DNA from: Paracoccaceae bacterium
Lineage (GTDB): Bacteria; Pseudomonadota; Alphaproteobacteria; Rhodobacterales; Rhodobacteraceae
Reading direction: 5' to 3'
Length of the DNA stretch: 34,294 nt
NCBI GenBank assembly: GCA_020447005.1
Contig: JAGRDO010000038.1
Span: 8,773-43,066 of the forward strand
In this document: piece after piece, positions 9,303-27,479 of the stretch
Numbering within the stretch: position 1 is the first letter of the stretch
Layout: the number at the start of each line of letters is the position of its first letter
Position numbers and translations under genes: made by a program
Notes under the pieces: generated by a model
The model's input: the letters and a program-made list of their open reading frames with translations, nothing else
The model's database searches: none
Told to the model about the DNA's origin: nothing

Positions 9303-10289
9303 TCAATCCGCTCTGCCTCGATCGCCGCGCTCATGCATGATCCTTCCGATCGTGTTCATCAAAAGCTGGGCGGCGAGGATCGATGTCGATCCCGTCGAAT
9401 CGTAATCGGGCGCGACTTCGACCAGATCGAGGCCCACCACCTGGCCCCGCTTCACCAGCCCGGCGATGAGTTCGAGGACTTCGTAATAAATGAAGCCGCC
9501 ATGGCTGGGTGTGCCGGTACCGGGGGCGATCGAGGGATCGAAGGCGTCGATGTCGATCGTCAGGTAATAGCGCGCGCCCTTCGGGATACGCGCGAGCATT
9601 GCCTCAACCCCCATCTTCCGGAATTGCCGGACCGACTGGATGTCTGAGCCCATTGCCCTTGCCGCCTCATACCCGTCACGCGCGGTTGATGAGACATTGC
9701 GGATGCCGATCTGGCTCAGACCGCTGACATAGGGTTTTTCAGCGGCCCGGCGCATCGGGTTGCCATGACCGAAACGCACACCGTGGCGCTCATCGACGAA
9801 ATCGAGATGCGCGTCGATCTGCACCACATGAAGCGGACCGTTGGCAGCACAATCCTCGTCAAAGGCATTGATGCAGGGAATGTTGATCGAATGATCGCCC
9901 CCGATCACCACCGGCAGGGCGCCGGCAGCCAGGATCTTTCGCACGCCGAATTCGATATTGGCATGGCTTTGTACCGTGTCGGTATGCACGATGTCGGCGT
10001 CGCCGATATCGACGATACGTACCTTCGCCGGGTCGAGATAGGTCACGTCATCCTCGTGGTCATAGGCCCCGGCATGCCCGAAGGCAAAAAGGGTGGACGC
10101 CTCGCGCACCCCGCGCGGCCCCATGCGCGCGCCCGACCGCCATTGGCAGCCAAAGTCGAAAGGGGCGCCCATCACCGCGACATCGGCGTCGATGGCGTCC
10201 CAGTTCTCTACATAGGGATATTTCCCGAAGGTACAGATACCCACGAAGGGCAGGTTCAGCCGCCCCGTTTCATAGCCGTGTTTCGACAT
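9303..10289 (-). CDS. Agmatinase-family ureohydrolase
   Basis: A 328-residue member of the arginase/agmatinase family, di-metal enzymes that hydrolyse a guanidino group and release urea. The metal motifs are complete: GGDHS (130-134, H133), D159-A-H161-L-D163, and D246-I-D248 in TIDIDAFDPSIAPGTGTPSHGG, with E291 in LVEVAP. The APGTGTP loop is of the agmatinase type, but this subgroup also includes guanidinobutyrase, guanidinopropionase and guanidine hydrolase, so the substrate cannot be read from sequence alone. The start is supported by AGGAG a few bases upstream, which overlaps the stop of the preceding deacetylase gene; eight bases separate them. It is the last gene of the BMP-transporter operon rather than part of a polyamine cluster, and no arginine decarboxylase is nearby. 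This argues for a transported substrate. Confidence 0.88.
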   Translation of the reverse strand: MSKHGYETGRLNLPFVGICTFGKYPYVENWDAIDADVAVMGAPFDFGCQWRSGARMGPRGVREASTLFAFGHAGAYDHEDDVTYLDPAKVRIVDIGDADIVHTDTVQSHANIEFGVRKILAAGALPVVIGGDHSINIPCINAFDEDCAANGPLHVVQIDAHLDFVDERHGVRFGHGNPMRRAAEKPYVSGLSQIGIRNVSSTARDGYEAARAMGSDIQSVRQFRKMGVEAMLARIPKGARYYLTIDIDAFDPSIAPGTGTPSHGGFIYYEVLELIAGLVKRGQVVGLDLVEVAPDYDSTGSTSILAAQLLMNTIGRIMHERGDRGRAD

Positions 10290-10297
10290 GCTTGCTC

Positions 10298-11212
10298 CTA
10301 TAGCTGCGCCATGACCGGCGCGGAATATTGCGGCATCTGCACCCGGCGCGGTGTGTATTCCCCGCTGGCGGTAACCGAGCGCACATGGGCCGCGATCTCT
10401 TCCATTGGCGCGAACCAGACATCGCCGCGCTCAAGCACCGTTTCGAGAAACCGCGCGACAACCTCCCAACGTGAGAGACGTCCGGTGGCGAACGGGTGGA
10501 CCACAGGCACCCAAAGCCCGCCGTGGCGCCAGGCGGCCTCGAACTCCTGCACGAAGGGCTGCCAGCCCGTTTCGGGCGCGCGGATCGGCATCATGTAGTT
10601 GAGGTCCATCGATTGCACATATTGCGGCCAGTCATCGAGGCCCCAATGCGACGGGATCTCAACCAGCGATCCGCCCGCGGCCTCGATCAGGTAGGGCACG
10701 TCGTCACCCATCAGCGAGGCATCGTATTCAAAGCCGCGCTCGACCAAGAGGGCGGCCGAGTGATCGGAAAAATTGTAAAGCGGCGCGCGCCAGCCGCGGG
10801 GGCGCCGGCCGGTCGCACTGACGATCACCTCGATGCCGCGATCCATCCAGCCTGCCTGCTCTTCCCGGCTTTGCCCTACCGGGTTTTCATGCAGATATCC
10901 GTGATGGCCGATCTCGTTTCCGCCGGCGAGGATCGCCTCCACGGCCTGTGGGTAGGTCTCGATGCACCAGGCGGGAATGAAGAATGTCTGGCGGATGCCA
11001 AGGCGCCGGTAGGTGTCGACGATGCGCGGCACCCCGACCATGGGCCCATATTGCAGCATGGAAATCGCCGAGGCGCGCCTGAACCCGCTTTGCGGGTGTT
11101 CAAGGTGCACAAGGCTGTCGGCATCCATGTCGAAGGTGATGCAGGCGGCAGCGCGGGCGCCGTTCGGCCAGGGAACCGGGTTGGCGATCAGCGGGTAGGA
11201 TACGGGCATCAT
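10298..11212 (-). CDS. Polysaccharide deacetylase (NodB/PuuE-like) family hydrolase
   Basis: A 304-residue NodB-homology protein. Motif 1 is TFDMD (26-30, expected catalytic base D28), the metal pair is H104 and H108 in GHHGYLHEN, and WRAP (141-144) is motif 3. No signal peptide is present, which points to a cytosolic enzyme acting on a small molecule, like the cofactor-independent allantoinase PuuE of the same superfamily, rather than a cell-wall deacetylase. The start overlaps the stop of the second permease as ATGA; a second ATG immediately follows (11209), better spaced from GGAGG, and may be the true start. It lies between the importer genes and the ureohydrolase. A C-N hydrolase working in series with the ureohydrolase is the natural reading, but this is inference. 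Confidence 0.85.
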   Translation of the reverse strand: MMPVSYPLIANPVPWPNGARAAACITFDMDADSLVHLEHPQSGFRRASAISMLQYGPMVGVPRIVDTYRRLGIRQTFFIPAWCIETYPQAVEAILAGGNEIGHHGYLHENPVGQSREEQAGWMDRGIEVIVSATGRRPRGWRAPLYNFSDHSAALLVERGFEYDASLMGDDVPYLIEAAGGSLVEIPSHWGLDDWPQYVQSMDLNYMMPIRAPETGWQPFVQEFEAAWRHGGLWVPVVHPFATGRLSRWEVVARFLETVLERGDVWFAPMEEIAAHVRSVTASGEYTPRRVQMPQYSAPVMAQL

Positions 11213-12150
11213 TTGCCTCCCCGAATGTATCTGGTGCCGATGGCGGCGGGTGGGCGCACCTTGCCGGCGAAAACGACAAGGGCAAGAAATGAGGCGACAA
11301 ACGGCACCATCGAGAAAAGCTGGTAGGGCACGTCTGGCGCGCTGAACTGCAGACGAAGCTGAAGCGCATCGCTGAAGCCGAAGAAGAGACAGGCGAGGAA
11401 GGCGCCCACCGGGTTCCACCGGCCAAGGATCAGGGCGGCCAGCGCGATGAAGCCTTTGCCGGCGCTCATGTTCTCGGTGAAGACATGGACCTGCGCCAGA
11501 ACGATATAGGCGCCGCCCATCCCCGCCAGCGCGCAACTGATCAGGACGGCGAAGGTACGCACCTTCGGAACGCTGATCCCGGCGCTGTCGGCGGCCACCG
11601 GATAGTCGCCGATGGCGCGGAGCGACAGGCCCCAGGGCGTGCGATAGATCGCCCACCAGCAAAACGGGACCAGCAGGTAAAGCGCATATGTCAAGACGTC
11701 GACATCGAAAAGGATTGGCCCGAAGAACGGGATCGCCGACAGCCCGGGTAAGGCAAAGGGCTCAAACCCCGGCATGGTCGTTGTCGCGTCGGCGCCAAGG
11801 ATCAGGCGCGCGAGATAGGATGTCATCCCCAGCATGAGGATGTTGATGGCAATCCCCGCGACCAGCTGGTTGATGGCAAGCCCCACCGCAAGCCCGGCCA
11901 GAATAAGCCCGGCGATCAGCGCCACGACAACGGCAAGGGCAAGACCGGCCACGGGCGTTCCGAACAGATAGGTTCCGACCGCCGCGCCAAAGGCGCCGCC
12001 AAGGATGCAGCCCTCTAGCGCGACGTTGAACACGCCCGATCGCTCGGAGATCACCCCGCCGATAGCGGCGAAGGCGATCGGCACCGCGAGACGCAGGCTG
12101 GTGCCGAGAAGATCTGCCAGCGCCTGTGGATCACTCAGTAGCGTCAGCAT
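11209..12150 (-). CDS. ABC transporter permease, nucleoside/BMP type (second permease)
   Basis: A 313-residue inner-membrane permease of the BPD_transp_2 (LivH/RbsC/YufQ) family. Eight or more hydrophobic segments run from about residue 15 to 300. GGVISERSGVFNVALEGCILGGAF (about 31-54) is the family's conserved N-terminal region, and GLSLRAIGDYPVAADSAGISV the cytoplasmic coupling loop that docks on the ATPase. The start at 12150 is chosen because the frame then opens with MLTLLSDPQALADLLG, as relatives do; the upstream extension lies inside the previous gene and is not hydrophobic. It overlaps the first permease by 20 bases and the deacetylase gene by 4. It forms one half of the transmembrane channel of this importer. 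Confidence 0.93.
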   Translation of the reverse strand: MLTLLSDPQALADLLGTSLRLAVPIAFAAIGGVISERSGVFNVALEGCILGGAFGAAVGTYLFGTPVAGLALAVVVALIAGLILAGLAVGLAINQLVAGIAINILMLGMTSYLARLILGADATTTMPGFEPFALPGLSAIPFFGPILFDVDVLTYALYLLVPFCWWAIYRTPWGLSLRAIGDYPVAADSAGISVPKVRTFAVLISCALAGMGGAYIVLAQVHVFTENMSAGKGFIALAALILGRWNPVGAFLACLFFGFSDALQLRLQFSAPDVPYQLFSMVPFVASFLALVVFAGKVRPPAAIGTRYIRGGK

Positions 12151-13252
12151 CTTTTGCCCCCTGCTTGCGGAATGTGTCACCCACCGCCCGGTCGAGCCGC
12201 TCCCGGCCGCGCAGCCGCGCCGCCCATTTCTCGGCGTCAAGTTTCAGCCCGAGGCTCGCCGCGACGAAAATGATGACAAGTCCCTGGATCGCCTCGATCA
12301 CCGTGCTTTCAAGCCCGGTGGCACGCTGCATGACCAGCGCCCCCGCCTTCAGCCCTGACAGGAAGAAGGCGGCAAGGGGCGCAAGGATCGGGTTCAGTGC
12401 GGCAAGGAACGCCACGACGATGCCATCAAAGCCGAAACCCGGCGAGAAATGGTGATAGAGGCGGTATTTCACCCCCAGCACCTCGAAAGCGCCGGCAAGC
12501 CCGCCGAGGGCGCCGGCCACGAACATGACGCCAACCAGATAGGGCCGTACCGGAACGCCGGCGTAACGCGCCGCGTTGACATTGCGCCCGATCGTGTCGA
12601 GCGCGAAGCCCGTGGTGGAATAGCGCAGCACGAAGTACATGATCATGGCCAGCGCGACGCCGATGACGACACCGGCATGGGCATCAGTTTGCGGCAGGAT
12701 GATCGGCAGCCACAGGCTGGGGCGGATCTCTTCGGAATAGGGATAGGGCGCGCCCGCCTGCATCATCGGCCCACCGGCGACATAGCTGACCAGATTGATG
12801 GCGATGAAGTTCATCAGGATGGTCAGGATCACCTCGTTCAGCCCGTGATAGGCCTTGAAATAGCCGGGGATCATGCCCCAAAGCCCCCCGCCGAGGGCCC
12901 CCGCCAGCACGCAGATCGGCAGCGCGAGGAAAGTGGGCATCTGGGGCAAATAGAGCGCGGCGGCCGCCGAAAACAGGGCGCCCATGTAGATCTGCCCTTC
13001 GGCACCAATGTTCAAAAGGCCCGCGCGCAGCGGCAAGATCACCGCCAGCCCTGCCAGGAGGATGGGCGATGTTTTCACCAGCGTCCCGGCCAGCCCCCAG
13101 TAATCAAGAAAGGCGCCGCGGAACAATTCGCCATAGGCGCCAAGCGGCGAAACCCCCGCCAGAAGGATCAGCCCCGACCCCACGATCAGCGCCATGAGCA
13201 CCGCCCACACCGGGCGAAGCAGGAAAAGATAACGAACAAGGTTGGTCATCAT
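12131..13252 (-). CDS. ABC transporter permease, nucleoside/BMP type (first permease)
   Basis: A 373-residue inner-membrane permease of the YufP/NupP type, the larger of the two permeases typical of BMP-family importers. LRAGLLNIGAEGQIYMGALF (about 76-95) is the conserved family stretch, followed by GGGLWGMIPGYFKAYHGLNEVILTILMNFIA. FALDTIGRNVNAARYAGV is the coupling loop, and the C-terminus is a charged cytoplasmic tail (RLRGRERLDRAVGDTFRKQ). The start overlaps the ATPase stop as ATGA; two ATG codons stand side by side. It pairs with the second permease to form the channel. Confidence 0.93.
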   Translation of the reverse strand: MMTNLVRYLFLLRPVWAVLMALIVGSGLILLAGVSPLGAYGELFRGAFLDYWGLAGTLVKTSPILLAGLAVILPLRAGLLNIGAEGQIYMGALFSAAAALYLPQMPTFLALPICVLAGALGGGLWGMIPGYFKAYHGLNEVILTILMNFIAINLVSYVAGGPMMQAGAPYPYSEEIRPSLWLPIILPQTDAHAGVVIGVALAMIMYFVLRYSTTGFALDTIGRNVNAARYAGVPVRPYLVGVMFVAGALGGLAGAFEVLGVKYRLYHHFSPGFGFDGIVVAFLAALNPILAPLAAFFLSGLKAGALVMQRATGLESTVIEAIQGLVIIFVAASLGLKLDAEKWAARLRGRERLDRAVGDTFRKQGAKDADATE

Positions 13253-14775
13253 GCCTCCGCCCCTTCATGCAGACCGCCCATCAGCGCACCGATCCGCTCG
13301 GTTGTAACCTCGTCCGGGGTCAGGACGCCGGTAATCTCTCCCGCGCACATGACGGCGATACGGTCGGCAACGGTCAGGATGTGTTCGAGTTCGGTGGAGA
13401 TGTAGAGTACGGCCTTGCCGGCCGCGCGCTCGGCGATGACGGTGCGCTGCACCGCCTCGATGGCACCGACGTCAAGCCCCTTGGTGGGCTGCATCACGAT
13501 CAGCACCCGCGGATCGGATTCGACCTCGCGGGCGAAGATCAGCTTTTGCTGGTTGCCGCCGGAAAGGAACCGAACCTTCTGGTCGATACCGCGCATCCGA
13601 ACGTCATAGCGCCGCACCCAGTCTGTGGCTTTCTCCCGAACGGTTCGGGTCTGAACGACACCGCCGCGCGAAAAGGGTGCGGCGGTGAAGTCGCGCAGCA
13701 TGGCGTTCTGGGCGATGGAGAAGTCGAGTACCAGGCCGGTGTGATGCCGGTCTTCCGGCACATAGGATACACGGTGGCGCTGGCGTCTGACGTGAACGCT
13801 GGCAGAGGTGACATCCGCATCGTCGACCAGAACCGAGCCGGACTTCGGTGCAAGAAGGCCGACAATGGCGTTGGCCAGTTCCGCCTGCCCGTTGCCGTCA
13901 ACTCCGGCCACACCGAGCACTTCACCGGCGCGAACCGAAAGCGTAACACCCTTCACCGCCTCGATGCCGCGCGCGTCCTCCACCACCAGATCCGATACCT
14001 GCAGAATGGGCGCGCCCGGGGCGATGTCGCCCTTGTCCATCCGGTCGTGCACCACCTCGCGCCCGACCATCTTGCGGGCCATGTCGCGGGCATCGGTTTG
14101 CGCCACCTTCATCCGGGCAGAAACCTTGCCATGCTGCATGATGGTCACATCGTCGGCGACCGCCTCCACCTCATCGAGCTTGTGAGTGATGAAAAGCACC
14201 GTCCTGCCCGCCGCCCGCAGCCGCCGCAGACCGTCGAGGAATGAGGCGATTTCGTTCGGGGCCAGAACGCTCGTGGGTTCATCGAAGATCACCACCTCCG
14301 CGTCGCGGAACAGGACCTTCAGTATCTCGACCCGCTGGCGCATGCCGATCGGCAGCTTCCAGACGACCTCGTGAGGGTCGATGTCGAAACCGTATTCATG
14401 GGACAATTCGGCCAACCGCGCGGCGATACGGTCCAGATCGAGGCTAAGCCCCTGGCCGGGCAGGCCCAGCGCCACGTTCTCGGCAACGGTAAGGCTGTCG
14501 ACCAGCATGAAATGCTGATGGATCATGCCGATCCCCATCGTCATCGCCTGACGCGGCGAAGAAATGCGAACGGGCTTGCCATTCAGGCGGATCTCGCCCT
14601 CTTCCGGCTGATAGAGCCCGAAAAGAACGTTCATCAAGGTGGTCTTGCCGGCGCCGTTTTCGCCCAGAATGGCATGAACGGTGCCGCGGGAAATGCTCAT
14701 GTCGACGCCGTCAAGGGCGCGAAAGCCGGCGAACAGTTTGGAAATCCCGTGCAGGCTTAGTACATTGTCAGCCAT
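13249..14775 (-). CDS. ABC transporter ATPase with two nucleotide-binding domains, nucleoside/BMP type
   Basis: A 508-residue ATPase made of two fused ABC domains, as in YufO/NupO and sugar importers. Domain 1 has Walker A GENGAGKTT (38-46), Q-loop MIHQHFMLV, signature LPIGMRQRVEIL and Walker B VVIFDEPTSVLAP. Domain 2 has the weakened Walker A GVDGNGQAEL normal for this family, signature LSGGNQQK and Walker B-like VLIVMQPTKGLD, with Gln where the catalytic Glu usually sits. Domain 1 is therefore probably the main ATP-hydrolysing site. The start at 14775 is preferred over one six codons upstream because GAGG lies a few bases before it while the upstream codon has no ribosome-binding site. A GC-rich hairpin lies between it and the binding-protein gene. 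Confidence 0.94.
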   Translation of the reverse strand: MADNVLSLHGISKLFAGFRALDGVDMSISRGTVHAILGENGAGKTTLMNVLFGLYQPEEGEIRLNGKPVRISSPRQAMTMGIGMIHQHFMLVDSLTVAENVALGLPGQGLSLDLDRIAARLAELSHEYGFDIDPHEVVWKLPIGMRQRVEILKVLFRDAEVVIFDEPTSVLAPNEIASFLDGLRRLRAAGRTVLFITHKLDEVEAVADDVTIMQHGKVSARMKVAQTDARDMARKMVGREVVHDRMDKGDIAPGAPILQVSDLVVEDARGIEAVKGVTLSVRAGEVLGVAGVDGNGQAELANAIVGLLAPKSGSVLVDDADVTSASVHVRRQRHRVSYVPEDRHHTGLVLDFSIAQNAMLRDFTAAPFSRGGVVQTRTVREKATDWVRRYDVRMRGIDQKVRFLSGGNQQKLIFAREVESDPRVLIVMQPTKGLDVGAIEAVQRTVIAERAAGKAVLYISTELEHILTVADRIAVMCAGEITGVLTPDEVTTERIGALMGGLHEGAEA

Positions 14776-14804
14776 TGCGCCCTCTTCGGCCATCAGCGAA
14801 ATGG

Positions 14805-14834
14805 GGGCCGGGGCACGGCTGCGCGCCCCGGCCC
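14805..14834 (-). promoter_or_regulatory. Intercistronic hairpin after the binding-protein gene
   Basis: A perfect 10-bp stem, GGGCCGGGGC (14805-14814) with GCCCCGGCCC (14825-14834), loop 10 bases, begins 7 bases past the binding-protein stop and ends 29 bases before the ATPase start. No T run follows on the minus strand. Such hairpins between binding-protein and membrane genes are known to protect the upstream message and give more binding protein than channel. Confidence 0.6.
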
Positions 14835-14841
14835 AAAAGGC

Positions 14842-15798
14842 TCAGTTGGCGGTGATTTCGCCAGAGACCAGCTTGTCTATCACGGCCTGGGTCTCACCTT
14901 GGGTTTCGGCCGAAACCTTGGCTGAATAGCTGCCAAGACGCGCCGCATCGGGTGTCTCGAATCCGAAGACATAGGACTTGCCCTCAAGCTTGCCTTCGGC
15001 CGCCAGCCGGATCACGTCGCCAAGCCCTGCGCGCATGTCGAAGATGGCCGACTGGATGACGGTGTCCGGCCAGTCCGCAATCGCGTCATAATAGATGCCG
15101 ATGCCCATCTTGCCTTGTTCCTGCACGCCTTGAAGGCTGCCAACCACGGCATTGTCCATCGAGGGGAAGATCACGTCCGCGCCCTGGCTGATCAGGTTCA
15201 GCGCTGCCTCCTTGCCCTTGGCGACATCGTCCCAGTCGTTGGTCCAGGCCGTATAGACCTCACCATCCGGGCGCGCGGCTTTGAAGCCATTTGCGAAGCC
15301 CTCGCCAAGCTGGACGTAGAAGGGAATCTGCTGGGCGCCCACATAGCCACCCTTGCCGGTTTGCGAGGTCTTGCCGGCGACGAAACCGACGGCATAGCCG
15401 ACTTCGGCGAAATTGAAGCTCATGGTCGAGACGTTGCCGCCCGCCGTCGTGCCATTCACGATAAGGAATTTGGTGTCCGGGAATTTCGCGGCGACCCGAT
15501 CAACCGATTCCTGAAACTCGCCGCCATGGCCGATGACGAGGCTGTAGCCGCGGCGGGCATAGTCGGCCAGCGCCTCCGGCTGATCGGGCTGCGCCGTCTT
15601 TTCGGAATAGGCAAATTCGGCGCCCAGTTCTTTCGAAATGCGCTCGACGCCCTCATAACCGGCCTGGTTGAAAGACTTGTCGGTGATGACGCCCGGCAGC
15701 ACGATGGCTACGTTGAAATCGCCGGCCACGGCCGCCGATGCGAACGTCGAGACCACCGCTGCTGCCGCAAGCATGGACTTCAGTTTGAATACGGACAT
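14842..15798 (-). CDS. BMP-family ABC transporter substrate-binding protein
   Basis: A 318-residue periplasmic binding protein of the BMP/PnrA family, whose studied members bind purine nucleosides or related ligands. A signal peptide is clear: basic start MSVFKLK, hydrophobic core, and cleavage expected after AVA at residue 25; there is no lipobox cysteine, so it should be soluble in the periplasm. The mature protein opens with NVAIVLPGVITDKSFNQAGYEG, the BMP signature strand and loop, and has the hinge region around IVNGTTAGGNVSTMSFNFAEVGY and IFPSMDNAVVGSLQGV. Ligand residues cannot be assigned safely from sequence alone. GGGAGG lies a few bases before the start. It is the first gene of the six-gene operon and is divergent from the TetR gene. 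Confidence 0.94.
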   Translation of the reverse strand: MSVFKLKSMLAAAAVVSTFASAAVAGDFNVAIVLPGVITDKSFNQAGYEGVERISKELGAEFAYSEKTAQPDQPEALADYARRGYSLVIGHGGEFQESVDRVAAKFPDTKFLIVNGTTAGGNVSTMSFNFAEVGYAVGFVAGKTSQTGKGGYVGAQQIPFYVQLGEGFANGFKAARPDGEVYTAWTNDWDDVAKGKEAALNLISQGADVIFPSMDNAVVGSLQGVQEQGKMGIGIYYDAIADWPDTVIQSAIFDMRAGLGDVIRLAAEGKLEGKSYVFGFETPDAARLGSYSAKVSAETQGETQAVIDKLVSGEITAN

Positions 15799-15822
15799 TG
15801 CTCCCTCCCGTAGTTATGTTCT

Positions 15823-15857
15823 CTCTAAAGTTAGAGTGGCTATAAGTTTGGTGTCAA
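15823..15857 (-). promoter_or_regulatory. Predicted promoter and overlapping operator of the importer operon
   Basis: On the minus strand a perfect -35 box TTGACA (15857-15852) is followed after 17 bases by CTAACT (15834-15829) as a weak -10. The -10 lies inside a perfect inverted repeat, CTCTAA-AG-TTAGAG on the plus strand (15823-15836). A repressor bound there would block RNA polymerase; the adjacent TetR protein is the obvious candidate. Confidence 0.6.
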
Positions 15858-15865
15858 TTGATTTC

Positions 15866-15913
15866 TTGAGCGTGCCGATTACCTGTGCCATAGTGGATCT
15901 GCTCAAAGAGATC
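15866..15913 (+). promoter_or_regulatory. Predicted promoter of the TetR gene with a leader palindrome
   Basis: TTGAGC (15866-15871), 17 bases, then CATAGT (15889-15894) form a plausible promoter 23 bases before the TetR start. GATCT (15896-15900) and AGATC (15909-15913) form an inverted repeat just after the -10, around CTCAAAGAG, where autoregulation could act. It differs in sequence from the 15823-15836 palindrome. Confidence 0.4.
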
Positions 15914-15917
15914 ACTT

Positions 15918-16541
15918 ATGAATCAAACGCTTAGGCAAAAGCAGAAGGCGTCGCGCCATGCTCGGATCCTGAAGGTGGCCCGCCGCCGCTTTCAGGCTGA
16001 AGGCTATTCCAATGTAACGATCGAGGAGATCGCGCGCGAATCCGAACTGTCGCCGGCCACCGTCTACAATTACTTCAACAGCAAGGTCGGGATCCTGCTT
16101 GCCCTTGTCGGTGAGAGCGACGAAATTCTTCTGGCCGAGCTTGACGCGATGTTCGCCGCGCATCGCGGCAGCCTGTCGTCGGCAATTCTGGACTTCGGCC
16201 GCACGCTGCGGCGGCACGCGATGTCCTACCTGCAAAAACCGACATGGCGAGAGGTGCTGTCGGCCTCCATTCAGGACGGCAGCGGTGAGTTCGGCCGAAC
16301 CTACACGGCGCTCGACCGCGTCATCATCGGCAAGATCGCCGACAAGATCCGCTCCATGCAGCGGCAAGATCAGGTTTCGGCGGCGGTCAATGCCGACGAC
16401 CTCGCCGATTGCCTGTTCTCACTCCAGAATATCCGGTTCTTCCAGTTCATCGCCGACGATGCCGTCAGCCTTGAAATGGCCGACGATGCCCTGCGCCGCG
16501 ATCTTGATCAACTGGAACACCTGTTCCGGCCGACCGACTGA
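15918..16541 (+). CDS. TetR/AcrR family transcriptional regulator
   Basis: A 207-residue TetR-type repressor. The N-terminal helix-turn-helix spans about residues 14-60: ILKVARRRFQAEGYSNVTIEEIARESELSPATVYNYFNSK, with the recognition helix in SPATVYNYF. The rest is the all-helical ligand-binding and dimerisation part, which is not conserved enough to name a ligand. The gene is divergent from the binding-protein gene of the importer operon with 119 bases between starts. Inverted repeats overlap both predicted promoters, which supports local control of the operon and perhaps of itself. A substrate or intermediate of the operon as inducer is inference. The 252 bases between its stop and pgm contain no gene and no convincing terminator. 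Confidence 0.93.
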   Translation: MNQTLRQKQKASRHARILKVARRRFQAEGYSNVTIEEIARESELSPATVYNYFNSKVGILLALVGESDEILLAELDAMFAAHRGSLSSAILDFGRTLRRHAMSYLQKPTWREVLSASIQDGSGEFGRTYTALDRVIIGKIADKIRSMQRQDQVSAAVNADDLADCLFSLQNIRFFQFIADDAVSLEMADDALRRDLDQLEHLFRPTD

Positions 16542-16793: not shown

Positions 16794-20426
<3,633 letters not shown>

Positions 20427-20430
<4 letters not shown>

Positions 20431-22526
20431 ACCGCTTCTCCGCAAGGGACGAGTGACAGCAGGAGGATCGCGCTATCGCTTACGATCAGCCCGCCCTCAG
20501 GCAGCGGGCGGCGCGCCAGCGGAGCGTCGGAAGCCGTGTCCAGTTCCAGCACCCAGCATTGGCCCGCGGGTGCCGGGGGCACGACAACCGGCAGACTTTT
20601 TTCAGCGCGGTTAAAGACAAGGAAAACCGTGTCGTCACTTGGTTCGGCCGGTGCGGATTCTGCCGATCCCCGCAAAATCAGCGCGAAGGACGAAAGGTCA
20701 GGGTCGCGCCATTCGAGTTTAACATCCTCGAAGTCCAGCCATTCGACATCAGGCGTGCCGTCAACTTCGCGCCTTGCGCCGTGCAGGAAGCGGGTCTGTC
20801 GCAGACTGGGATGCGCGCGGCGCAGCACCGACAAACCCTTCACGAAATCCAACAGATCGGTGTCGGCGCGATCCCAGTTGACCCAGCCGACCGCGTTATC
20901 CTGACAATAGGCGTTGTTGTTGCCGTTCTGACTGTTGCCGATTTCATCTCCGGCAAGCAGCATCGGGGTGCCCTGGGACAGAAAGACCGTGGCCAGCAGA
21001 TTCCGCTGGCGGCGGGCGCGGCGGGCGAGGATGCCCGGGTCATCCGTAGGACCTTCGGTTCCGCCATTGTCGCTGAAATTGGCGTGGTGACCATCGTGGC
21101 CCCCTTCGCCATTCGCTTCGTTGTGACGCAGATTGTAGCGGGTCACATCGGCGAGCGTAAATCCGTCATGGGCACTGACGAAATTCACCGATGACCACGC
21201 CCGCCGCCCGGCATTGTCAAAGTGCCCCGCCGATCCCAGAAGGCATGCTGCCAGATCCTGGGCACTATGTTCGGCCCCCATCCAGAACCTTCTGTCGGCA
21301 TCGCGGAACCGGTCGTTCCATTCGCGGAACTCGGGCGGAAATTGCCCGAGCTGATATCCACCCGGCCCGATATCCCAAGGCTCGGCGATCAGCCGCACAT
21401 TGCTCAGAACCGGGTCCTGTCGCAGGGCATCGAAAAACCCCCCGTTCGGGTCGAACCCGTGGTTTTCACGCCCGAGCGTCGATGCAAGGTCGAAACGGAA
21501 CCCATCCACACCCATGACCTCGACCCAGTACCGCAAGCTGTCAAGGATCATCCGCAGCACATAGGGGTGCGCCGCGTTGAAGGTATTTCCGCAGCCGGTG
21601 TCATTCACGTAGTAGCGCGGCTGGCCCTCGATCAGACGATAGTATGAGGCGTTGTCGATACCTCGAAAGCTGAGGGTCCGGCCCAGATGGTCGCCTTCGG
21701 CCGTGTGGTTATAGACCACATCCAGAATGACCTCGATCCCGGCATCGTGAAATCGCCGCACCATGGCACGAAAGCCCTCGCGCCCGGCAGGGCCGCGATA
21801 GCGCGGCTCGGGGACGAAAAACCCGATGGTGTTGTAGCCCCAATAGTTCTTCAGCCCCTTCTGGATCAGGAAACTGTCGTCGACGAAGCCATGAACCGGC
21901 AGAAGTTCGATCGCAGTAACTCCAAGGCCTTGCAGATGATCCAGTATCGCGTCAGAGGCCAACCCCTCGTAGGTGCCCCGCAGGTGTTCGGCCACGCCAA
22001 GGTGTTCCTTCGTCAGGCCTTTCGCATGCGCTTCATAGATAAACAGCTCGTCCAGGGATCGGCGCGGCCTTTCGGCTTCGGGGACAAGTGCCTCTGGGGC
22101 GATCACCACCGATCTTGGGACATAAGGTGCGCTGTCGCGCGAACTGAAGGACAGATCGCCACGCGGATCCGCTTCGTCATAGCCCAAAAGGTCCGTGTGA
22201 TCGGTGAATGTGCCGCAAAACTCGCGTGCATAGGGGTCAAGCAGCAACTTGTTCGGGTTGAACCTGTGACCATTTTCAGGCGCATATGGGCCGTGCACCC
22301 GGTAACCGTACCGCGTGCCCGGCCCGGCCCCTTGCAGATAGCCATGCCAGACCGGCCCGGTGCGTTCGGGAAGCACCAGTCGCCCGGTTTCCGACCCGCT
22401 CGTATCAGAGAAAAGGCACAGCTCGACCTTCTCGGCGTTCGCGGAGAACAGCGCAAAGTTGGTGCCCTCACCGTCAAAATGCGCGCCAAGCCGTCTTGGC
22501 GACCCTTGTTTCAACGTTTTGGTCAT
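20427..22526 (-). CDS. glgX: Glycogen debranching enzyme GlgX
   Basis: A 699-residue GH13 enzyme (isoamylase-like) that hydrolyses alpha-1,6 branches on phosphorylase-trimmed glycogen. An N-terminal CBM48-like beta domain (about 10-110, with GTNFALFSANAEKVELCLF) precedes the barrel. Catalytic residues: nucleophile D346 in GFRFDLAS, acid E382 in IAEPWDIG, and H453-D454 in VSAHDGFTL; VVYNHTAEGD (271-280) is conserved region I. Length is near that of typical GlgX proteins. Its start overlaps the glgA stop as ATGA and its stop overlaps malQ in the same way, so the three are translationally coupled. Confidence 0.96.
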
Positions 22527-23983
22527 GCCGGGGCTTTTCGCTGCCTCGCCTCATCAAGCAAGGTTTGGAACACGGCGCGATAGGCATCGGCGGACGCGTC
22601 CCATCCGACAGGGTGGCGCATGGCGTTGCGCATTACTGCGGTCCACGCCTTTCGGTCGAGGAAAAGGTTGCAGGCGCGGTCGATCGTGTCTGCCAGCGCT
22701 TCGGCGGTCGTCGGGGCGAACTGAAACCCCGTGGCGCAACCCGATTTCATCGCCGCGTCGGATGCGTCGATCACCGTATCCGCCAGACCGCCCGTCCGCG
22801 CGACGACCGGCAAGGTCCCGTAACGAAGCCCGTAAAGCTGGGTCAGCCCGCAGGGTTCGAATCGCGATGGCACAATGATCGCGTCTGATCCCGCCTGCAT
22901 CAAATGTGACAGGCGTTCATCGTAACCGATGATGGTGCCCACAATGCCGGGATGCTGGGCGGAGGCGCGCCTGAATGCGTCCTCCAACCCCTTGTCCCCG
23001 GTTCCAAGCAGTGCCAGACGCGCGCCGCGCGACACCAGGGTTGGAAGAGCCTGAAGCAACAGGTCCAGCCCCTTCTGCTCGGTCAACCGGCTGATCACAC
23101 AGAAGAGCGGCGCATCAACGGCCGGCGTCAACGCAAAGCGCTTTTCAAGCGCCGTACGGCTGGCCGATTTGCGGTTGAGCGCGCGCGCGGAATAGTTTTC
23201 AGGAATATCAGGGTCGGTTTCCGGGTTCCAAACATCCAGATCGATCCCGTTGAGGATGCCGATCAGGTCCGTCTTGCGCGATTGCAAAAGGCCCTCCATC
23301 CCCATGCCGAACTCATTTGACAGCAATTCCCGTGCATAGGTCGGGCTGACGGTCGTTACCCGGTTCGACGCAACGATACCGGCCTTCATCGTGCTGATCT
23401 TGCCCCAGAATTCATAACCGCTGACCGAATATCCCTTGGGGTCGAGGTTCAGGGGCCCGATCAGATCGCTTCCGAACACACCCTGAAACGCGATGTTGTG
23501 GATCGTCATGACACAGGGCAGGCCGGAACCACGCTGACGAAGGTACCATGGCGCAAGGCCCGCCTGCCAGTCGTGGGCATGCAGGATGTCCGGAAACCAT
23601 CCGTCAAATCCGTCGATGGCAACACGCGCCGCCGCTTCGCTGAGTGCAGCGAAGCGTTGCGCATTATCCGCCCAGTCGCGCCCGGCTTCGTCAAGATAGA
23701 TCCCGCCGCCACGCTCGAACAGGTGCGGCGCGTCCAGCAACAACAGCGAGATCCCCTCTTCCTCGGCGGCGATCAGCGTCGCGGTGCCGCCTTGGATGCG
23801 GCCAAGGGGAATTTTCGCGGTTCCCTTTTCCGCGACGCCGCGCAATGCCGGATAACACGGAAGGATGACACGGGCCTCGACGCCTTTTCCTGCCAAAGCC
23901 TTCGGCAGGGCGCCGACAACGTCGGCAAGCCCGCCTGTCTTGACGAATGGCGCGCATTCGGACGCGACGAGAAGGACCCTCAT
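22523..23983 (-). CDS. glgA: Glycogen synthase (ADP-glucose)
   Basis: A 486-residue GT5 glycosyltransferase that extends alpha-1,4 glucan with ADP-glucose from GlgC. The N-terminal KTGGLADVVGALP (K15 onward) is the ADP-glucose loop; the HDWQAGL region follows, and ISRLTEQKGLDLLLQAL plus PSRFEPCGLTQLYGLRYGT mark the C-terminal Rossmann domain with the conserved Glu of the retaining mechanism. Length matches bacterial GlgA (about 480). The start lies one base after the glgC stop, and its stop overlaps glgX. Confidence 0.97.
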   Translation of the reverse strand: MRVLLVASECAPFVKTGGLADVVGALPKALAGKGVEARVILPCYPALRGVAEKGTAKIPLGRIQGGTATLIAAEEEGISLLLLDAPHLFERGGGIYLDEAGRDWADNAQRFAALSEAAARVAIDGFDGWFPDILHAHDWQAGLAPWYLRQRGSGLPCVMTIHNIAFQGVFGSDLIGPLNLDPKGYSVSGYEFWGKISTMKAGIVASNRVTTVSPTYARELLSNEFGMGMEGLLQSRKTDLIGILNGIDLDVWNPETDPDIPENYSARALNRKSASRTALEKRFALTPAVDAPLFCVISRLTEQKGLDLLLQALPTLVSRGARLALLGTGDKGLEDAFRRASAQHPGIVGTIIGYDERLSHLMQAGSDAIIVPSRFEPCGLTQLYGLRYGTLPVVARTGGLADTVIDASDAAMKSGCATGFQFAPTTAEALADTIDRACNLFLDRKAWTAVMRNAMRHPVGWDASADAYRAVFQTLLDEARQRKAPA

Positions 23984-23984
23984 G

Positions 23985-25247
23985 TCACTGGCCCAACCGG
24001 TCGATCATGTCCTGAGTGATAAGGCAGACACCGTTTTCAGTGCGTCGGAAACGCTTGGCATCAAGGATCGGATCCTCACCGACCACCAGCCCTTGCGGGA
24101 TCTGGACGCCGCGATCGATCACGACGTTGCTCAGACGTGCATTCCGGCCGATATCCACATAGGGCAGCGCAACGACCCCTTCGAGATGCGAGAATGAGTT
24201 GCAGCGCACCCCTGTGAACATCAGACAGCGATAAAGGCTGGACCCTGATATGATGCAGCCACCTGAAACCATTGACGAAATTGCCTGCCCGCGCCGCCCT
24301 TCCTCATTATGGATGAACTTGGCGGGCGGCGTCAGTTCCTGATAGGTCCAGATCGGCCATTCTGTCGCATAGATATCGAGTTCGGGTTCAAATTCGGTCA
24401 AGTCGATATTGGCCTGCCAGAACGCATCCACCGTCCCCACATCACGCCAATAGGGTTTCTTCTCCAGACCGCTGGTGACACATGACCGGCTGAACGGATG
24501 CGCCATCGCCAATCCTTCGCGGACCAGTTTTGGAATGATGTCCTTGCCGAAATCGCGGCTTGAATTCGGATCGGCGGCATCTTCGCGCAGCAACTTGAAG
24601 AGGAACTGGGTCTCAAAGACATAAATCCCCATACTGCAAAGCGCCTGGGTCGGATCGCCCGGCATCGCAGGCGGGTTTTCGGGCTTTTCGACAAAATCGA
24701 TGATCCGGTCGTTCTCGTCGATGGCCATCACGCCAAATCCCTTGGCTTCTTCCAGCGACGCCGCGATACATCCAACGGTCACATCGGCGCCCGAATTGAC
24801 ATGTTGCGCAAGCATCACCGAATAGTCCTGCTTGTAAATGTGGTCACCCGCCAGGATCACCATGTATTTCGGCGCATAGCTTTCGATAATGTCGATGTTC
24901 TGAAAGATCGCGTCGGCGGTCCCGAGATACCAGTTCTCTTCGTTCACGCGCTGCGAAGCGGGCAGGATGTCGAGCGACTCGTTGCGCTCGGGCCGGAAAA
25001 AGCTCCAGCCGCGATGCAAATGGCGGATCAGGCTGTGCGCCTTATACTGCGTGGCCACGCCAATGCGCCGGATGCCGGAGTTCATGGAATTCGACAGGGC
25101 AAAATCGATGATCCGCGTCTTGCCGCCAAAGAAAACTGCCGGTTTCGCACGGCGATCGGTCAGCTCCTTTAGGCGGCTGCCGCGCCCACCGGCCAGTACA
25201 AAAGCCATCGACTGACGGGCGAGGCTCCGTTGATCCTGCTTTGACAT
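23985..25247 (-). CDS. glgC: Glucose-1-phosphate adenylyltransferase
   Basis: A 420-residue ADP-glucose pyrophosphorylase, the committed and allosterically controlled step of bacterial glycogen synthesis. The N-terminal nucleotidyltransferase loop is [32 protein letters not shown] holds the metal-binding Asp, FVEKPENP the Glc-1-P Lys, and [18 protein letters not shown] the substrate loop. The C-terminal part (from about 300) is the left-handed beta-helix that mediates tetramer formation and regulation. Work on Rhodobacter enzymes shows activation by fructose phosphates; this protein is probably similar, by inference. The start has GGGAGG about eight bases upstream, among the strongest ribosome-binding sites of the operon. 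Confidence 0.97.
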
Positions 25248-25274
25248 CTATTTCCTCCCATGTGGAAATGTTTC

Positions 25275-27476
25275 TCAGACCCCTGCGGCTTCCAGTTCAA
25301 AAAACAGCGTCGTCAGCGGCGGAAGGGTCACGACAATCGAATGCGGTTGACCGGCCGCCGCGACATCCTCGCTGGCGACACCACCCAGATTGCCCGTACC
25401 GCTGCCGGCATATTCCGCCGCATTGGTGTTCAGGCGCTCTGCCCAGCGCCCCGATGCGGGAACGCCCAGGCGAATAGCGGAGCGTTCCACCGGTGTGAAA
25501 TTGCTGACCACCAGCATCGGCCGGGCCCCGGCCTTGCCACGACGCAGCCAGGCAAAAACGGATTCGTCCGCATTGGACAAAAGCCATTCGAACCCTTCCG
25601 GCCTGCTGTCCAGTTCATAAAGCGCTGGCGCCGAAGCATAGAGCATGTTCAGGTCACGGACGAGGTTTTGCACCCCTTTGTGCAGATCGGTATCGAGCAG
25701 GTGCCAGTCGAGGCTGGAGTCATGGTTCCACTCTCGCCCCTGGGCGAATTCCGATCCCATGAACAGAAGCTTTTTCCCCGGATGCCCCCACATGAAACCG
25801 TAGTAGGCGCGCAGATTGGCGAATTTATCTGCCCCTTGGCCCGGCATGCGGTCGAGCATCGATCCTTTGCCGTGCACCACCTCGTCATGGCTGAGCGGCA
25901 GGACGAAGTTTTCGGAGAACGCATAGTGCAGCCCGAATTCGATCTTGCCGTGATGGTATTTGCGATGCACGGGATCTTCGCGGATGTAGGACAAAGTGTC
26001 GTTCATCCAACCCATATTCCACTTGAACCCGAAACCGAGACCGCCGGAATGCACGGGCGCGCTTACCCCCGGGAAGGCCGTGCTTTCTTCGGCGACGGTC
26101 ATCACGCCATCCATCTCGGCATAGACGAGCGCGTTCATGCGCTGCATGAAAGCGATCGCCTCAAGGTTTTCTCGCCCGCCGTGGATATTGGGCACCCATT
26201 CGCCTTCGCCGCGTGAATAGTCGCGATAAAGCATCGATGCCACGGCATCGACCCGCAGCCCGTCCACATGATGCTCTCGCATCCAGTAGATCGCATTGGC
26301 AATCAGAAAGTTCTGAACCTCTGCGCGGCCATAGTTGTAGACGAAAGTGCGCCAGTCGGGATGCCAGCCTTCCTTGGGGTCGGCATGCTCGTAAAGCGCT
26401 GTACCGTCGAAGCGGCCAAGCCCGTGCTGATCCTCGGGGAAATGGCCCGGCACCCAATCGATGATCAGCCCCAGTTCCGCCGCATGGCATGCATCGACGA
26501 AGGCCCGAAACTCATCCGCGGTCCCGTGACGGATCGTCGGAGCGTACAGCCCGATGGGCTGATATCCCCAGGACCCGTCAAACGGGTACTCTGATACCGG
26601 AAGCAGCTCGATATGGGTAAAACCCATCTCTTTGGCATAGCTGACCAGTTTCTGCGCATGTTCGGTATATGAGAGAGGTCGGTTTCCCTCTTCCGGGATG
26701 CGCCGCCATGACCCTAGATGCACTTCGTAGATCGACATCGGCCGGTCGATGCGCTGCCTTTCGCCGCGTGCCTTCATCCACGCTGCGTCTTGCCATTCAT
26801 ATTGGCCGAGATCGCGCACAACCGATGCGGTCTTCGGCGGATGTTCGGCACCAAAGCCGAAGGGGTCAGCCTTCTGCGGCAACAAATGCCCCTGCGCATC
26901 CAGAAGTTCGTATTTATAGGCCGCCCCTGCCCCGATACCGGGCAGAAAGATTTCCCAGACGCCGGTTCCGCCGCGTTTGCGCATGACAGCGCGCCGGCCA
27001 TCCCAGGAATTGAAGTCGCCGACGACCGACACACGTCGGGCATTCGGCGCCCAGACCGCAAAATGCGTGCCCCATGTGCCTTCATGGGTCATCACATGCG
27101 CGCCAAGCTTTTCCCAAAGACGCAAGTGCGAACCTTCGCCGATCAGATATTCGTCCAGCTCTCCGAGAACCGGGCCGAAGCGATAGGGATCGTCCGTTTC
27201 CCAGCGCTCCGCACCCCGGGTAAAACGAAGCCTGTAGGCGAAGCGGCGCTTGCGGCGCAGCTTGCCGTGAAACACGCCCGCCGCACCCTCGACCGGCGAA
27301 AGGGTTGCGGCGACGCGACCCGTTTCGGCATCGACAAGCTCGACTTTCCCGGCGTCGGGATGGAAGGCCGTCGCCGTCAGCTTCCCCTCCATCTCGTGCA
27401 ATCCAAGCACGGCGAACGGGTCGCCGTTATTGCCGGTGCTGAGAACTTGAAGTGCGGTCCGGCGGTCTGTGTCCAT
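25275..27476 (-). CDS. glgB: 1,4-alpha-glucan branching enzyme
   Basis: A 733-residue GH13 enzyme that cuts alpha-1,4 chains and rejoins them as alpha-1,6 branches. Two N-terminal beta domains (about 1-110 and 115-225, the second CBM48 with THFAVWAPNARRVSVVGDFNSWDGR) precede the barrel. The catalytic residues are D410 in GLRVDAVASML, E463 in VAEESTAFPG, and the HD pair in LPLSHDEVVHGKGS. The usual length for the long form with an N1 domain is about 730. The ATG at 27476 is preferred over the GTG just before it because GGGGG lies seven bases upstream; both are within four bases of the glgP stop. It ends 27 bases before glgC, the widest gap in the operon. Confidence 0.97.
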   Translation of the reverse strand: MDTDRRTALQVLSTGNNGDPFAVLGLHEMEGKLTATAFHPDAGKVELVDAETGRVAATLSPVEGAAGVFHGKLRRKRRFAYRLRFTRGAERWETDDPYRFGPVLGELDEYLIGEGSHLRLWEKLGAHVMTHEGTWGTHFAVWAPNARRVSVVGDFNSWDGRRAVMRKRGGTGVWEIFLPGIGAGAAYKYELLDAQGHLLPQKADPFGFGAEHPPKTASVVRDLGQYEWQDAAWMKARGERQRIDRPMSIYEVHLGSWRRIPEEGNRPLSYTEHAQKLVSYAKEMGFTHIELLPVSEYPFDGSWGYQPIGLYAPTIRHGTADEFRAFVDACHAAELGLIIDWVPGHFPEDQHGLGRFDGTALYEHADPKEGWHPDWRTFVYNYGRAEVQNFLIANAIYWMREHHVDGLRVDAVASMLYRDYSRGEGEWVPNIHGGRENLEAIAFMQRMNALVYAEMDGVMTVAEESTAFPGVSAPVHSGGLGFGFKWNMGWMNDTLSYIREDPVHRKYHHGKIEFGLHYAFSENFVLPLSHDEVVHGKGSMLDRMPGQGADKFANLRAYYGFMWGHPGKKLLFMGSEFAQGREWNHDSSLDWHLLDTDLHKGVQNLVRDLNMLYASAPALYELDSRPEGFEWLLSNADESVFAWLRRGKAGARPMLVVSNFTPVERSAIRLGVPASGRWAERLNTNAAEYAGSGTGNLGGVASEDVAAAGQPHSIVVTLPPLTTLFFELEAAGV

Positions 27477-27479
27477 CAC

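Follow-up and report, generated by a model that had tools for sequence, protein, structure and literature searches.

A TetR-flanked operon of a Paracoccaceae bacterium pairs a NodB-fold hydrolase with a ureohydrolase of a distinct clade: a candidate module for the breakdown of small nitrogen-rich rings

We analysed a 34,294-nucleotide stretch of DNA (hereafter the window) from a Paracoccaceae bacterium (assembly GCA_020447005.1, contig JAGRDO010000038.1, positions 8,773 to 43,066) and found in it, at 9303-16541, an operon encoding a BMP-type importer, a hydrolase of the NodB/CE4 fold and a ureohydrolase, beside a divergent TetR-family gene. This locus is best read as a real, conserved catabolic module, of which the window holds the minimal form: an importer, a putative ring-opening NodB imidase and a ureohydrolase of a new clade. 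The explanation that we favour, to which we give an even chance, is that this TetR-controlled operon imports a small, nitrogen-rich cyclic compound that contains an acyl-guanidine or acyl-urea bond, resembling creatinine or hydantoin, and degrades it by hydrolysis; the assignment of the substrate class to cyclic acylguanidines or ureides is itself about evenly balanced. An earlier note, drawn from the sequence of the locus alone, had proposed an uncharacterised ureido/guanidino catabolic operon acting in two hydrolytic steps; this is still the best reading, and the interpretation given there is, overall, partly supported.

Beyond the observed gene content, conserved pairing, folds, metal sites and clade membership described below, we infer the import, the reaction types, their order and the substrate class as follows. 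The BMP protein would catch a free heterocycle without ribose, which the ABC transporter would import. A cytoplasmic, metal-dependent cyclic imidase of the NodB fold may then cut the acyl C-N bond and convert the ring into a guanidino (or ureido) acid, from which the dedicated ureohydrolase would strip the guanidino group as urea (or an equivalent); the amino compound that remains would enter central metabolism. At related loci with two short-chain dehydrogenase/reductase (SDR) genes and a GMC oxidase, hydroxylated precursors would probably be oxidised to the ring that NodB opens.

The operon lies on the reverse strand. It begins with the gene of a BMP/PnrA-like periplasmic binding protein (14842..15798), followed by those of a double ABC ATPase (13249..14793), two permeases of the BMP-type importer (12131..13252 and 11209..12150), the NodB-type hydrolase (10298..11212, with ATG 11212 or 11209 as the start) and the ureohydrolase of the arginase/agmatinase superfamily (9303..10289). 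The gaps between these genes, from the binding protein to the ureohydrolase, are +48, -4, -20, -4 and +8 bases, so a single transcription unit is likely. The Pfam families Bmp (183.6 bits), ABC_tran and BPD_transp_2 (twice) were found in the importer, with NCBIfam matches for the ATPase and the permeases, TetR_N in the regulator, Polysacc_deac_1 (56.4 bits, cut-off 23.1) in the NodB protein and Arginase (264.7 bits, cut-off 22) in the ureohydrolase. Open reading frames, families and gaps thus confirm the tightly packed operon of importer, NodB/PuuE-like hydrolase and ureohydrolase with its divergent regulator that had been described earlier. By Pfam, no polyamine gene was recognised among the operon products and no nickel chaperone among their families, and the Pfam and NCBIfam families of the operon included no further allantoin-pathway gene. 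Throughout, gene names cited with bits were tested, as distinct from names given by eye.

The two hydrolases are conserved together. A scan of a genome collection with the window NodB protein yielded 68 loci in other genomes; the retrieval favours close relatives and the counts lean that way. These loci are named L###, and their genes were called with a home-made codon scorer, with some starts wrong. The same ureohydrolase lay within 9 kb of NodB at 47 of the 68 loci, that is at 45 of the 52 where NodB scored at least 455 bits and at 2 of the 16 below this value. A BMP importer of the window type was present at eight, and all eight, in a set picked by NodB, carry both hydrolases; because of these two counts we do not regard the gene order as chance. 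The order BMP-ATPase-permease-permease-NodB-ureohydrolase recurs in L006, L008, L012 and L068, and in L011 with about 1.2 kb separating NodB and the ureohydrolase, while in L016 and L034 the ureohydrolase stands ahead of NodB and in L044 the importer and the ureohydrolase are divergent from NodB. The commonest layout is ureohydrolase-SDR1-SDR2-NodB. SDR1 and SDR2 were found together at 36 of the 68 loci, a GMC oxidase at 21, an NCS1 permease at 19, a relative of the NMT1-type binding protein of L023 at 16 and a creatininase-like gene at 3. In the NodB tree the importer-bearing loci are scattered over several places, which suggests that the importer was swapped more than once. The expectation that all these genes stay together therefore holds for the hydrolase pair, and fails for the importer, which is interchangeable. 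Trees (99 ureohydrolases, 86 NodB proteins) were made with FastTree on MAFFT alignments under length filters, so that fragments are absent from them. Near-duplicates (L099 and L018, L101 and L047, both at zero branch length, and L100 and L021, nearly so) are included in the trees and in the 88 loci considered below; L002, L003 and L075 were left out of the ureohydrolase tree as duplicates, and L074 retains there a second ureohydrolase of the window's own genome.

The ureohydrolase carries all the metal-ligand motifs (GGDH, DAHLD, DID and E291), as the earlier note had stated. It falls in a clade of 68 tips, a few of them duplicates, that holds no reference (support 0.893); SpeB, GbuA, GpuA, GdmH and 1WOG all lie outside. 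Identity to the window protein is 68-87% inside the clade and 30-37% to the references. The clade has two fully conserved signatures, DAHLDF and GIRNVSST, and an almost fully conserved insert, FxFGHxGAYDxED, which is modelled poorly (pLDDT <50 at 71-80). The agmatinase model PRK02190 gave 197.2 bits, below its cut-off of 302, and the protein is not grouped with SpeB in the tree; together with the lack of a recognised polyamine neighbour in the operon, this makes 'agmatinase' probably a wrong name for it, and the doubt cast earlier on that default label is borne out on this side. On the other side, the agmatinase equivalog TIGR01230 is just passed (177.5 against 174.3 bits). Four further members of the family occur in the same genome: a close copy (C56), a GpuA-like protein, an agmatinase and an arginase. 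Of these the agmatinase is a better candidate for that function (PRK02190, 385 bits, cut-off 302), and the arginase scores 280 bits against a cut-off of 227.6. The C56 copy (L074 8491-9459) is 77% identical to the window enzyme and sits, by eye, between transporter-like and EamA-like genes, close to an IMP-dehydrogenase-like gene.

A GdmH-like enzyme takes the place of the ureohydrolase beside NodB and the SDRs in L103 and L104 (in L104 its gene was called in two pieces). This opens a different explanation, in which NodB cleaves a linear acylguanidine or acylurea to free guanidine or urea and the ureohydrolase is a free-guanidine hydrolase, as the GdmH-like enzyme of these loci would be. L104 also holds a urea-amidolyase-associated protein (217 bits, under the cut-off of 284.7) and, at 10315-10812 beside the GdmH-like gene, a very His-rich protein with no NCBIfam match at E 1e-8 that is possibly a nickel chaperone. 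We consider this explanation unlikely for the window, where residue 13 of the ureohydrolase aligns with residue 61 of 7ESR, so that the N-terminal part of GdmH is absent, where DAHLD stands in place of the DRHVD of two GdmH-type references, which lie outside the clade, and where the operon families include no nickel chaperone.

The NodB-type protein is of the HpPgdA/3RXZ type, and we propose it as a hydrolase of cyclic imides or acylguanidines. No signal peptide was seen on it by eye. Its AlphaFold model (mean pLDDT 91.3) was ranked by Foldseek closest to 3RXZ (TM 0.86), whose structure title says 'putative', then to 3QBU (HpPgdA, 0.75) and the PuuE structure 3CL6 (0.75), with identities of 38% to 3RXZ and 25% to 3QBU. 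The Asp-His-His metal site is intact: among 86 aligned sequences Asp30 is present in 84 (the two PuuE sequences were not covered there), His104 in 86 and His108 in 84, the last being Trp in both PuuE proteins (1Z7A and 3CL6). An HpPgdA-like fold, the lack of a signal peptide and this metal site, all present here, are what we would expect of a cyclic imidase of the HpPgdA/HxnM type. According to the extract of PMC3084791, HpPgdA is tetrameric and binds metal, which PuuE does not.

These results bear on two further explanations. The earlier note had likened the protein to the allantoinase PuuE, and in an allantoin pathway the ureohydrolase would cut allantoate. PuuE is indeed a relative of the same fold, and in Aminobacter (L050) a further NodB has OHCU decarboxylase and AllA-like genes nearby. 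This comparison nevertheless fails: the protein scored 76 bits with the PuuE model TIGR03212 (cut-off 424.6) and keeps the metal His missing from PuuE, no other allantoin gene is among the operon families and HpPgdA was reported inactive on allantoin, and we regard a PuuE-type allantoinase as very improbable here. The NodB/CE4 fold typically deacetylates, and the Polysacc_deac_1 match agrees with this; NodB might then be an N-deacylase of an acylated guanidino amine such as N-acylagmatine, with the ureohydrolase acting on the freed amine, and the narrow pass of TIGR01230 would suit such a role. We think it improbable, since HpPgdA did not turn over acetylated polyamines or dipeptides in the extract cited above, related loci hold creatininase, allantoate amidohydrolase, OHCU decarboxylase and CtlX genes above cut-off, and Pfam revealed no polyamine gene in the operon.

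HxnM, a reported cyclic imidase, is a better model than PuuE for the NodB enzyme. In Aspergillus nidulans, the dehydrogenase HxnW makes 3-hydroxypiperidine-2,6-dione, HxnM is the proposed opener of this ring and an amidase acts next, as deduced from metabolites of deletion strains in the available part of PMC9304392. Because the bacterial SDR-SDR-NodB layout resembles HxnW and HxnM, a role as a cyclic imidase is preferred for NodB by analogy.

The binding protein may point to the kind of ligand. In BmpA and TmpC, Asp98, Asp225 and Lys242 (BmpA numbering) are described as positioned for contact with the ribose (extract of PMC13325309). Aligned by motif, this Asp/Asp/Lys set is kept in TmpC and Lbp. 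When the positions were mapped by motif and spacing in sequence only (72, 194 and 17 in Lbp against 71, 198 and 17 in BmpA), they were Asn, Tyr and Phe in the window protein and eight window-type relatives, and Asn, Ile or Leu, and Leu in those of L014 and L059, so that all three ribose residues are missing in 10 of 10 aligned module relatives. The base-stacking Phe of the SFNQ motif is retained in the window protein. As the ribose residues are missing, a free heterocycle fits better than a nucleoside as the ligand, and this would also suit the exchange of the importer with NCS1 permeases (Pfam Transp_cyt_pur). The nucleoside ligand that the earlier note associated with BMP importers is thus not simply transferable, and nucleoside uptake is weakened as a candidate. 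Uptake of vitamin B6 was rejected, the four NCBIfam models of the putative B6 importer (NF047927-NF047930) giving 94.8, 178.1, 176.3 and 462.5 bits against cut-offs of 400, 465, 400 and 670. In a reverse search of 385 genomes of the same class, a close copy of the window-type binding protein was found only in the own genome, with three others at 49% identity; of these three, the two loci inspected (L123 and L124) had neither NodB nor ureohydrolase in the stretch retrieved, a result of little weight.

Genes of ureide and guanidine chemistry surround some of the NodB relatives, in line with the chemistry proposed earlier. L106 and L110 have a long operon of an amidohydrolase (152 and 147 bits to that of L107), a creatininase-like gene (195 and 184 bits to that of L014), the window-type ureohydrolase, a second ureohydrolase, an ABC importer, SDR1, SDR2 and NodB. 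L106 has in addition a cytosine-deaminase-like gene, presumably resembling the yeast enzyme, for which the closest NCBIfam model was TadA (69 bits, under cut-off); such genes lie near NodB in 5 of 88 loci. L014, with NodB and a BMP importer, holds a creatininase (297 bits, cut-off 235) and an allantoate amidohydrolase (PRK09290.1-3, 539 bits, cut-off 452), both above cut-off, and an EutA-like protein under its cut-off. CtlX in L117 and OHCU decarboxylase in L050 are above cut-off, L050 also having AllA-like and DUF2848 proteins, and HyuA- and HyuB-like genes were seen by eye in L118. Within 4.5 kb of NodB, 63 of 88 loci had a gene of a ureide/guanidine family, compared with 18 of 88 in a control zone at 5.5-10.5 kb of similar searched length; the family set was picked after the contexts had been viewed and near-duplicate loci are included, so this is a description and not a blind test. 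Forty-eight of the 63 owe this to the window-type ureohydrolase, and 15 of the other 40 loci to another member of the set. Separately, in Aminobacter (L050 and L016) NodB is clustered with an APC-type permease, an IclR-like regulator, an epimerase-like gene, AllA-like and DUF2848 genes, which suggests a further ureide pathway. The GMC oxidase at L034 16354-18051 passes the choline dehydrogenase equivalog (742.9 against 732.1 bits); as the gene sits in an imidase module, its substrate may be another alcohol. The own genome holds two creatininase-family members weakly like that of L014 (58 and 49 bits), and no SDR1 ortholog was found in it at E 1e-40, in a search run without a positive control.

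Several results weigh against the favoured explanation. In 198 genomes of the own family (NodB at E 1e-60, ureohydrolase at E 1e-60, binding protein at E 1e-40), the NodB type was found in 23, the ureohydrolase in 105 and the binding protein in 2, one of them the own genome and the other a match at 33% identity; the link between importer and hydrolases was sampled from the importer side only in this survey and in that of the class. Measured against the refuting condition of the earlier note the outcome is mixed, the ureohydrolase being much commoner in the family than the NodB type. The ureohydrolase was present in 20 of the 23 NodB genomes and in 85 of the remaining 175 (Fisher p = 0.0006, with no correction for descent). 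The finding that speaks most against a strict two-enzyme pathway is that 85 of the 105 genomes with ureohydrolase are without the NodB type, and the usual substrate of the ureohydrolase may for this reason not come from NodB. Moreover, both genes sit on one contig within 10 kb of each other in no more than 7 of the 23 genomes with NodB. The contexts of the solo ureohydrolase differ among 14 of 20 fetched loci, with what we take, by eye, to be a creatinase-like M24 gene beside it in L089 and sarcosine-oxidase-looking genes in L090. To these points are added the pass of TIGR01230, the failure of HpPgdA to act on allantoin and acetylated amines, and the fact that this structural relative has no proven small-molecule substrate in the extract of PMC3084791. 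GpuA-like genes (3 near, 9 far) and creatininase (1 near, 5 far) are not enriched near NodB, nor are OHCU and HyuA (each 0 near, 1 far). The SDR and GMC neighbours misfit creatinine itself, and, where use of urea is concerned, the own draft genome has a single weak match to urease alpha (18.7 bits against a cut-off of 680).

The pass of TIGR01230 and the 85 family genomes with the ureohydrolase and no NodB type would suit an ordinary agmatinase and an ordinary nucleoside importer lying side by side and sharing no pathway, as would the presence of the window importer at only 8 of 68 loci. To this we assign a low probability, given the better agmatinase candidate and the arginase elsewhere in the genome, the clade apart from SpeB, the missing ribose residues and the eight window-type importers of eight, at loci chosen by NodB, that sit with both hydrolases. 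Uptake and hydrolysis of a nitrogen-rich ring stays the favoured explanation. A wider version of it is possible, though we hold it with clearly less confidence: an undescribed pathway in which paired SDRs would oxidise hydroxylated cyclic guanidines or ureides, the NodB-fold imidase would open the ring and a new guanidino-acid hydrolase, the so-called agmatinase, would strip it. The window would then represent the minimal version, equipped with a dedicated importer, and 85 of the 198 family genomes would keep the ureohydrolase without the NodB type for the same last step. Considered in thought only, thiamine pyrimidine, pterin, creatinine oxidation products and arginine glycation products were set aside, none fitting SDRs, GMC oxidase, creatininase and ureohydrolase together.

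The regulator gene (15918..16541, forward strand) is separated from the binding-protein gene by a region in which, by eye and with no statistic, a TTGACA-like element followed by TTATAGCCACTCTAA was seen at 15831..15857 (reverse strand), a putative promoter and candidate TetR operator. The corresponding region of L006 has the palindrome TTTATAGTCACTATAAA, and L006, L068 and L034 have similar elements upstream of their BMP genes (by eye). Seven of the 8 window-type loci have, ahead of the importer, a TetR gene that scores more than 160 bits to that of the window. Beyond the regulator, at 16794-29873 on the reverse strand, lies a glycogen/alpha-glucan metabolism cluster, whose genes, named by eye, are phosphoglucomutase-, 4-alpha-glucanotransferase-, debranching-enzyme-, glycogen-synthase-, ADP-glucose-pyrophosphorylase-, branching-enzyme- and phosphorylase-like.

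Two little-understood groups, the HpPgdA-type NodB proteins and the ureohydrolase clade present in 105 of 198 family genomes, acquire through this module a chemical role that can be tested, and the conserved genes around it limit the search for a substrate to small heterocycles. If the proposal is true, bacteria would have an added route for recycling nitrogen from ring-shaped guanidine or urea compounds. No description of the NodB-ureohydrolase gene pair was found in the portion of the open-licence PMC literature available.

Parts of the module resemble known systems. HpPgdA and 3RXZ share the fold (TM 0.75 and 0.86) and the Asp-His-His metal positions with the window NodB, at only 25% and 38% identity. 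GbuA, GpuA and 1WOG have the ureohydrolase fold and metal site and are 36-37% identical to the window enzyme, whose clade is separate and has its own inserted FxFGHxGAYDxED, 1WOG moreover lacking the His of GHGNP. The PnrA/TmpC/Bmp nucleoside importers are alike in binding-protein family and layout, but their ribose Asp, Asp and Lys are replaced in the window and its module relatives. The creatininase/creatinase and hydantoinase/carbamoylase pathways open a ring and then remove a guanidino or ureido group; the logic would be the same here, and creatininase and AllC/HyuC-type genes occur at L014, but unrelated enzyme families would do these steps in the window, and the SDR and GMC genes of relatives are not known to be part of those pathways. 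The metformin hydrolase cluster met combines ureohydrolase genes with an AcrR-family regulator and an NCS1-like importer, like those module relatives that have an NCS1 permease, but has two ureohydrolase subunits and nickel-incorporation proteins, and the available text of its description mentions no NodB (PMC11271267); by Foldseek, the metformin hydrolase chains are 23-27% identical to the window ureohydrolase model. The nicotinate pathway of A. nidulans differs in that its second hydrolase, HxnN, is an amidase and not a ureohydrolase and that the window lacks dehydrogenases, and HxnM is likened to the window NodB through its published description and not by sequence; in the extract of PMC9304392, however, this branch has the same succession, a dehydrogenase (HxnW) leading to a cyclic imide, an HpPgdA-related imidase of the NodB fold (HxnM) and a second, nitrogen-freeing hydrolase.

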